Source: an uncultured Granulosicoccus sp. (GTDB lineage: Bacteria > Pseudomonadota > Gammaproteobacteria > Granulosicoccales > Granulosicoccaceae). Taken from it: DNA of 64,000 nucleotides. Positions 52,533 to 54,394 of this stretch are shown here, in pieces. Below the pieces are notes generated by a model that had not been told where the DNA came from, ran no database searches, and worked only from the letters and a program-made list of their open reading frames with translations. Made by a program: the position numbers and the translations under genes. Positions within the stretch are counted from its first letter, which is position 1, and each line of letters begins with the position of its first letter. The stretch spans positions 1 to 64,000 of the forward strand of contig CALKLO010000001.1 in assembly GCA_937991945.1 (NCBI GenBank), in the 5' to 3' direction.

Positions 52533-52705
52533 GATAGGGATCTGTACTCAAAAAGTTGTGAAATGCTATGCACGCAGTAGGCCTTGATAGGATTTTGGAT
52601 GAAGCTTGGCCAGTTTTGAGCTTCGCATTGCTTATAAAAAAGCAAAAAAAGGCCCGCCTGTCGTATACTCAAGGCCGTAGGTCACTGCAATGTACTGTTA
52701 CATGA

Positions 52706-52733
52706 ACTGTAGCGCATAGATGCACGCTGTGGT
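52706..52733 (+). ncRNA. Candidate RNA hairpin in leader
   Basis: ACTGTAGCG pairs with CGCTGTGGT (nine pairs, three of them G-U) around a 10-base loop. The G-U pairs would become A-C mismatches on the other strand, which favours a plus-strand RNA. It would be part of the 5' leader of the gene at 52934 or of a separate small RNA. Confidence 0.35.
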
Positions 52734-52737
52734 GAGA

Positions 52738-52766
52738 CCTGAGAGAGATTGACCTTTGCCTGAGAG
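52738..52766. repeat. Direct repeat CCTGAGAG, 21 bp apart
   Basis: CCTGAGAG occurs at 52738-52745 and 52759-52766, two helical turns apart, in the sulP / Asn-rich gene gap. Spacing suits a dimeric regulator binding one DNA face. On the minus strand it reads CTCTCAGG. Confidence 0.4.
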
Positions 52767-52933: not shown

Positions 52934-54370
52934 ATGACGAACAGTGAGTTGCCAGCTTCGGGGTCAAATTCGGGCGCGAGTTCAACAGATGGTCAATCAG
53001 AATCATCTACCGCTAAAAGCCCACAACGACGGAATCAGCGAGGAAGAAACCGTCAAAATACCAACGGTGGACAGCGTGCTGAGGGTGGTGGCAGTAACAA
53101 TAACAACCGTAATAACAACGCTAACGCTGGCAACAGTAAAAATACTAACAATAACCGTAATCGGAACAATCGCAATAACCGGAACCGTCCTCGCGACAAC
53201 GACGACATCGGTAATCGGATTGAACGAGGCAATCGTGCCCTGAAGCCGCCTCGTGAAATTACCGAGGAAATGGACAACATTGGTAATCGTGCATTGCCAG
53301 AGCCTACAGCTGCGGCCGAGTACGACGACGAAAACGACAACGTTGGTAATCGCGATCATTGCAACGTCAATAATCGCTTTCCCTCAGACAGCAATCTCAT
53401 TGGAATGGAAGATCCCTACCAAGTGGGTAGCTTGGTCGGAGGCGGTAATGGACGCTCCTCGCAAGGAAATAGAGGCAAAGGGCGTGCGAACCAGAATCGG
53501 CGACCGCAGCAGGGCCAGGGGCAACCAGGTCAGCAGCGCGGGCAGAGAAATGCTCAGCCAAGACCCAACAATCGCAATAACAACGCCAACAGCAACAACC
53601 CTAACAATAACCAGAACAGAAATAATCCGAACCGGAACAACCCGAATCGCAACAAGCCTAGCCAAGGCAATGCTGAAGACGGGCAAGGGGCAGCACCGCA
53701 AGGCGCTAACCCGCAAACTGCTGGGCAAGGTCAACCTCGTGGCAGAAATCAAAACCGCAATCGCAACCAAAACCGCAATAGAAATCAGAACCGTAACCCG
53801 CGTCAGCAGGGTGAGAACGGCGCTGCTAATGCAAATTCGAGCGACTCTACGGCTCAAACGCCTAACACAGCTCCGGTAGCTAACAACGCTGCGCCTAATC
53901 ATTCGGCTGCATCGTCACCTGTGTCTGCGCCTACGTCCGCGACTGCGTCCGCGCCGGTGAATACGACCGCGACTGCGTCCGCATCCGCACCCGTACGTAC
54001 ATCTGCGCCGACATCGTCGCCCGCTCAAGCGTCGGTTAATACGACGCAATCAGCAGCACCTCAGGCCAACGCATCCACTGGAAGTGGAGCTCCGGAAGCT
54101 GTGAAGAAGCCACGTGCTCCGAGAAAACCACGTATAGCCACAGAATCAAGTGAAGCGGCCAAGCCTGCGGCGGTTGAAAAGAAGCCTCGGGCAAAACCTG
54201 CAGCGTCTGCAACTGAGGCTACTGGAGAGGCAGCGCCGGTTAAGAAGCCACGCGCTGTGAAGAAAAAAGTCAGTAGTAAGGCGGCTCCTGCAGAAGGTGA
54301 TGTCGTCAAGAAACCTAGGGCTGCTCCCAAACCTCGTGCAAAGAAGCCACCTGCAGACGCTAGCGAATAG
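52934..54370 (+). CDS. Disordered Asn/Arg-rich protein with histone-H1-like tail
   Basis: The 478-residue product has no recognisable folded domain. Residues 1-90 are Asn/Arg/Ser-rich. Residues about 90-165 hold three copies of a D-x-[IV]-G-N-R motif (DDIGNR, DNIGNR, DNVGNR) and the only sizeable non-repetitive segment. Residues 165-300 are Asn/Gln/Arg/Gly-rich with NQNRNRNQNR repeats, 300-385 are Ala/Ser/Thr/Pro-rich, and 385-478 have repeated KKPRA blocks like histone H1 or bacterial Hc1/AlgP tails. Strong positive charge points to nucleic-acid binding. The frame stays open over 1.4 kb, and its composition is unlike neighbours. No function can be named. Confidence 0.8.
   Translation: MTNSELPASGSNSGASSTDGQSESSTAKSPQRRNQRGRNRQNTNGGQRAEGGGSNNNNRNNNANAGNSKNTNNNRNRNNRNNRNRPRDNDDIGNRIERGNRALKPPREITEEMDNIGNRALPEPTAAAEYDDENDNVGNRDHCNVNNRFPSDSNLIGMEDPYQVGSLVGGGNGRSSQGNRGKGRANQNRRPQQGQGQPGQQRGQRNAQPRPNNRNNNANSNNPNNNQNRNNPNRNNPNRNKPSQGNAEDGQGAAPQGANPQTAGQGQPRGRNQNRNRNQNRNRNQNRNPRQQGENGAANANSSDSTAQTPNTAPVANNAAPNHSAASSPVSAPTSATASAPVNTTATASASAPVRTSAPTSSPAQASVNTTQSAAPQANASTGSGAPEAVKKPRAPRKPRIATESSEAAKPAAVEKKPRAKPAASATEATGEAAPVKKPRAVKKKVSSKAAPAEGDVVKKPRAAPKPRAKKPPADASE
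53747..53798 (+). repeat. Short tandem repeat coding NQNRNR
   Basis: Imperfect units of AACCGCAATCGCAACCAA-like sequence code for repeated Asn-Gln-Asn-Arg. Silent differences between units show that the amino-acid pattern, not only the DNA, is kept. Confidence 0.6.
53937..53982 (+). repeat. 16-bp direct repeat with 30-bp period
   Basis: CCGCGACTGCGTCCGC occurs at 53937-53952 and 53967-53982 in the Ala/Ser/Thr/Pro-rich part of the same gene, a sign of recent slippage or duplication. Confidence 0.65.
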
Positions 54371-54394
54371 CGCCTGCAGATGACGTTGAAGAAA

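Follow-up and report, generated by a model that had tools for sequence, protein, structure and literature searches.

We analysed a window of 64,000 nucleotides, the whole stretch of DNA considered here, from an uncultured Granulosicoccus sp. It contains, at positions 52934–54370 of the forward strand, a gene for a 478-residue intrinsically disordered protein of no named family, which is found at the same locus in relatives. This open reading frame had been proposed in a preliminary description made from the letters of the DNA. It was confirmed as a real coding frame of 478 codons, and its start codon was backed by an alignment of nine homologues. The protein is 17% asparagine and 10% arginine, with 7% hydrophobic residues and a net charge of +35. 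This charge is unevenly divided among its parts, all of which are encoded on the forward strand. An N-terminal N/R-rich arm (residues 1–87; 52934–53194) carries a net charge of +11, a conserved acidic core (residues 88–168; 53195–53437) carries −10, an R/N/Q-rich arm (residues 169–300; 53438–53833) carries +19 and a Lys-rich tail (residues 390–478; 54101–54367) carries +16. The A/S/T/P linker that precedes the tail (residues 301–389; 53834–54100) is under the lowest constraint of all parts. The arms kept their composition in all of the relatives that were aligned. Both low-complexity features that had been pointed out in the preliminary description were recovered: the NQNRNR block is a tandem array in the R/N/Q-rich arm, detected by TRF at 53744–53793 with a period of 18 nt, and the basic tail contains four KKPRA units in the last 90 residues (at residues 391, 416, 437 and 459). 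Searches of Pfam, NCBIfam, PHROG and the PDB with the 478-residue protein returned no matches.

The core, which is supported by dN/dS, invariant columns and AlphaFold2 modelling, consists of four GNR units followed by the segment NVNNRFPSDSNLIGMEDPYQVGSLV. Three of these units are the D-x-[IV]-G-N-R copies that had been noticed before: DDIGNR at residue 90 (53201–53218, forward strand), DNIGNR at residue 114 (53273–53290, forward strand) and DNVGNR at residue 135 (53336–53353, forward strand). The second copy is followed by ALPE and has the form shared with the tails of poly(A) polymerase I (PcnB) described below; the third is DNFGNR in most relatives. The fourth unit, GNRALKPPRE, is at residue 99. 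Of 20,000 sequences shuffled at constant composition, 20 contained one copy of the motif and none contained two or more. NVNNRFPSDSNLIGMEDPYQVGSLV (residues 144–168; 53363–53437, forward strand) is the near-invariant end of the core, and NINNRFPSDSNLL within it is kept in a diverged homologue. AlphaFold2, run with 11 sequences, predicted the core to be without a fold (pLDDT about 50–65, mean 52; pTM 0.10). Because its sequence is conserved yet unfolded, we infer that this stretch of about 81 residues, with its four GNR units and NNRFPSDSNL segment, may be a docking module made of short linear motifs.

We estimated dN/dS by region using the Nei–Gojobori method in close genome pairs and in one more distant pair (G023/G013). 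For the core, dN/dS was 0.000–0.009 in four close pairs, 0.024 in G000/G015 and 0.045 in the more distant pair. The core had no amino-acid changes in 79 codons between G018 and G041 at a pS of 0.57, that is, with 57% of synonymous sites differing. The arms, linker and tail gave values of about 0.09 to 0.4 in close pairs; the Lys-Pro-Ala tail was at 0.09–0.20, compared with 0.00–0.02 for the core. For the neighbouring UspA, SulP, ETF-QO and MBL genes, dN/dS was 0.024–0.092 (among G011, G018 and G041). The lower dN/dS of the core indicates that it is under tighter constraint than the surrounding enzymes and that the coding frame is real. Judged by these sequence comparisons, the functional core of the protein comprises residues 88–168 with their GNR motifs, and the N/R/Q-rich arms and KKPRA tail drift. 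The preliminary description was therefore right to single out the D-x-[IV]-G-N-R segment and to suggest that the protein is under selection. Thus, strong selection can act on the protein of a composition-biased open reading frame that matches no family.

The region upstream of the gene is also conserved in part. A −10-like sequence, GTATACT (52663–52669, forward strand), lies 271 bases before the start codon; its TATACT is conserved in seven aligned relatives, and it is a putative promoter element. About 70 bases further downstream, and about 200 bases before the start codon, the presumed 5′ leader contains a 29-nt box, GTGAGACCTGAGAGAGATTGACCTTTGCC (52732–52760, forward strand), that is near-identical in seven aligned relatives. 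This box was not found in the leaders of G001, G007, G019 and G039, and no Rfam family matched it at E values up to 1. RNAalifold returned a weak consensus structure for the leader RNA, with an unfavourable covariation term. The conserved leader with its 29-nt box is possibly regulatory and is best regarded as a candidate. Two Rfam matches in the region were far below the gathering score and were attributed to chance. At the other end of the gene, an inverted repeat, CTGCAGACGCTAGCGAATAGCGCCTGCAG (54350–54380), overlaps the stop codon and lies between the gene and the convergent ETF-QO gene. This repeat, which was noticed through a sub-threshold Rfam match, is possibly a terminator.

The core profile detected the gene in 11 of 27 Granulosicoccus genomes (E < 1e-49). 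Outside the genus, an even sample of 369 genomes from the class yielded no copy of the free-standing gene, and a search of viral contigs and plasmids returned no homologues. The DNA pattern for DNxGNRAxP had five matches across the class, two of which were the present gene; the other three sit in unrelated open reading frames without comparable character and were rejected as homologues. The preliminary description had held that homologues missing from, or frameshifted in, relatives would speak against a real conserved protein; when both points were checked, neither counted against it. One genome within the free-standing clade (G006) had no match, but it is only 68% complete. All of the carrier loci examined have UspA–SulP on one side of the gene, and ETF-QO–MBL on the other wherever the stretch extends far enough. 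Two loci contain extra DNA between the gene and ETF-QO (L034, 7099–9069; L032, 7107–11328), which in L034 includes a membrane-transporter-like open reading frame and a further open reading frame. This extra DNA indicates that insertions can occur on the 3′ side of the locus.

Two deeper-branching genomes (G003 and G017) encode a diverged, 342-residue homologue that keeps DDRGNR ... YGNVVNINNRFPSDSNLL. The genus core profile matched this protein with an E value of 3–4e-4; an E value of 1e-19 was obtained with a profile that already contained both sequences and is therefore not independent. The gene is 27–67 nt downstream of rhlE on the same strand, between SulP and ETF-QO. The best family for the helicase upstream is RhlE, with a score below the curated cut-off of that model. 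We rejected rhlE as a general neighbour, as it adjoins the gene only in these two genomes and is at another place elsewhere. The diverged homologue has its Lys/Arg-Pro block at the N terminus and its N/R-rich part at the C terminus. The order of the arms can therefore be exchanged, and the core is the fixed part.

Weak matches to the core profile in G002 and G008 mapped to the C-terminal tail of PcnB. In G002, G008, G021 and G040, PcnB has a long tail containing DDN[FR]GNRA[LVI]P[ED]E ... N[AS]NRDxxEL[LF]G, and in G394, from another genus, PcnB ends in DDNIGNRAPVDGNTKQPQDDSFGNR, with the stop codon immediately after. The module-bearing protein from G002 was assigned to PcnB by Pfam and by NCBIfam (TIGR01942). 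These five tails scored 11.7–20.9 bits against the core HMM, and every one of them scored above all 1,000 of its own shuffles (highest shuffle of any tail, 11.5). By comparison, no score exceeded 1.1 bits among 57 control tails, likewise disordered, taken from the PcnB, RNase E and RhlE proteins of the genus. Profile–profile alignment of the core with the PcnB tail (hhalign) gave 91%, an E value of 9e-7 and 41% identity over 49 columns, and the match was extended and collinear (GNRALPE...NRD). By sequence, then, the GNR module of PcnB tails is related to the core, the match being short and in low-complexity sequence. AlphaFold2 did not dock the PcnB tail on the catalytic body of PcnB itself, in a prediction that had a shallow alignment and little power.

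The free-standing gene was not found in G002, G008, G021 and G040, and the genomes that carry it have PcnB tails without the module, such that the two forms were never found together. In the window genome, the PcnB tail is short (RRRR) and lacks the module. This mutual exclusion represents two PcnB-tail occurrences and one or two free-standing origins and carries little statistical weight. A tree of PcnB groups the free-standing clade with the G003/G017 clade as sisters and places the PcnB-tail form in a single, separate Granulosicoccus clade and in G394, which branches more deeply; several Granulosicoccus clades carry neither form. This distribution fits the transfer of a docking module, in one direction or the other, between PcnB tails and an independent protein, although only two or three independent events underlie it. 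The D-x-x-GNR motif was not found in 12 RNase E tails and RhlE tails of genus genomes. RNase E and RhlE tails, which also belong to the low-scoring control set, were rejected as its bearers. Among the RNase E proteins of the genus (L159–L170), several share a different sequence near the C terminus, [SP]RQPSQLKS[ST]VRSLA ... [AS]S[RK]xVPDV, a candidate for a docking motif other than GNR.

In the usual description, bacterial RNA-decay complexes have the disordered RNase E tail as their scaffold. The core-like module in PcnB tails and the diverged homologue beside rhlE both point to RNA decay, and the presence of the module within the PcnB tail of relatives suggests that the free-standing protein probably acts in trans like that tail. 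The best explanation, which we hold at about even odds, is that the 478-residue protein is an independent, disordered scaffold for RNA-decay enzymes, with a core that docks a partner and arms that bind RNA. In such a scaffold, the acidic core would dock a folded partner to which PcnB tails could likewise dock. RNA would be bound with low specificity by the cationic Arg/Asn/Gln-rich and Lys-rich arms, which may help foci to form. The free-standing protein would thus serve in trans as the PcnB tail serves in cis, bringing PcnB, RhlE or another decay enzyme into a common complex. We infer the docking function, the RNA binding and the partner, be it PcnB, RhlE or another protein; it is plausible that the arms bind RNA and phase-separate. 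Weighing against a scaffold are the lack of the motif in RNase E and RhlE tails, the predicted failure of the PcnB tail to dock on its own enzyme, the shortness of the PcnB-tail match and the small number of independent events.

E. coli PAPI shows enrichment at the membrane alongside RNase E, PNPase and RhlB (PMC4874777), and parts of it bind components of the degradosome (PMC9764084). The degradosome of this species is also able to recruit RhlE (PMC3997798). Degradosomes are assembled through short linear motifs in RNQ-rich disordered regions, the sequences of which vary between lineages (PMC4435900, PMC11964227), with motifs varying by lineage even for one same partner (PMC11964227). A bolder version of the scaffold proposal is that the protein is a lineage-specific degradosome scaffold, the docking module of which has been exchanged between a poly(A) polymerase tail and an independent disordered protein, switching between action in cis and in trans. 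This version is possible, although we hold it to be somewhat doubtful. If it is true, scaffolding can move between proteins, with a near-frozen docking module alternating with that of the poly(A) polymerase, and the GNR core would be a concrete, testable motif for bringing PAPI to the decay machinery.

One alternative, unlikely in our estimate but deserving some weight, is that the protein is an RNA-binding condensate or stress-granule-like protein that acts mainly through its RNQ-rich arms, with the GNR core serving in RNA recognition or self-association instead of docking another protein. Its composition resembles the non-catalytic region of gamma-proteobacterial RNase E, which is RNQ-rich with embedded motifs (PMC4435900), and its GNR units are repeated, as is often the case in self-association stickers. 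However, an acidic core binds RNA poorly, and near-invariance across 81 residues exceeds what composition-driven phase separation needs.

We consider it rather improbable that the protein is a nucleic-acid condenser of the histone H1 or AlgP type, in which the tail and arms would pack DNA or RNA and the core would be minor. Although the net charge of +35, the four KKPRA units, the low hydrophobicity and the arm composition retained in all relatives would suit such a role, selection is focused on the acidic core (net −10), and the basic tail is subject to drift and is N-terminal in G003 and G017. The presence of a core-like module on PcnB also argues against this role. The preliminary description thus stands as regards a conserved disordered protein that is under selection and has a GNR core, but its reading of the protein as mainly an H1-type condenser does not, as the acidic core is the most constrained part. 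H1-like DNA packing is less likely than an RNA-decay scaffold. Very unlikely is an account in which the PcnB-tail similarity is convergent or reflects shared low-complexity composition and the protein is unrelated to RNA decay: the match is short and in low-complexity sequence, E values per genome in the first search were only 0.0024–0.05 and the independent events are few, but none of the 1,000 shuffles reached the score of its tail in any of the five cases, the 57 natural controls remained at or below 1.1 bits, the match extends collinearly and the rhlE neighbourhood is independent evidence.

The 478-residue protein combines features of several known systems. Histone H1-like and AlgP-type bacterial proteins are Lys-Pro-Ala-rich. 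The present protein shares with them a Lys/Pro/Ala-rich basic tail with repeated KKPRA; unlike them, it has an Asn/Arg-rich body and an acidic core, its tail is not the most conserved part and the Lys-Pro-Ala repeats are not the main selected element. In a single Granulosicoccus clade and in a second genus, the tail of PcnB (TIGR01942; arginine-rich C terminus, PF12626) has a GNR module related to the core. Unlike PcnB, the 478-residue protein has no polymerase domain; Pfam and NCBIfam found neither the PolyA_pol head nor the RNA-binding domains in it. The window genome encodes two RNase E/G-family proteins elsewhere, and its own full-length RNase E (about 1147 residues) is without the D-x-x-GNR motif. 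Unlike RNase E, the 478-residue protein is a separate gene product without a catalytic domain (no PF10150 match in Pfam), and no RNase E motifs, such as NDPR, were recognized in it by eye. Like the C-terminal region of RNase E (PMC4435900, PMC11964227), it is disordered and combines an RNQ-rich region with an Ala/Pro-rich part, and it contains tandem repeats and conserved microdomains, with short conserved motifs set amid drifting low-complexity sequence.
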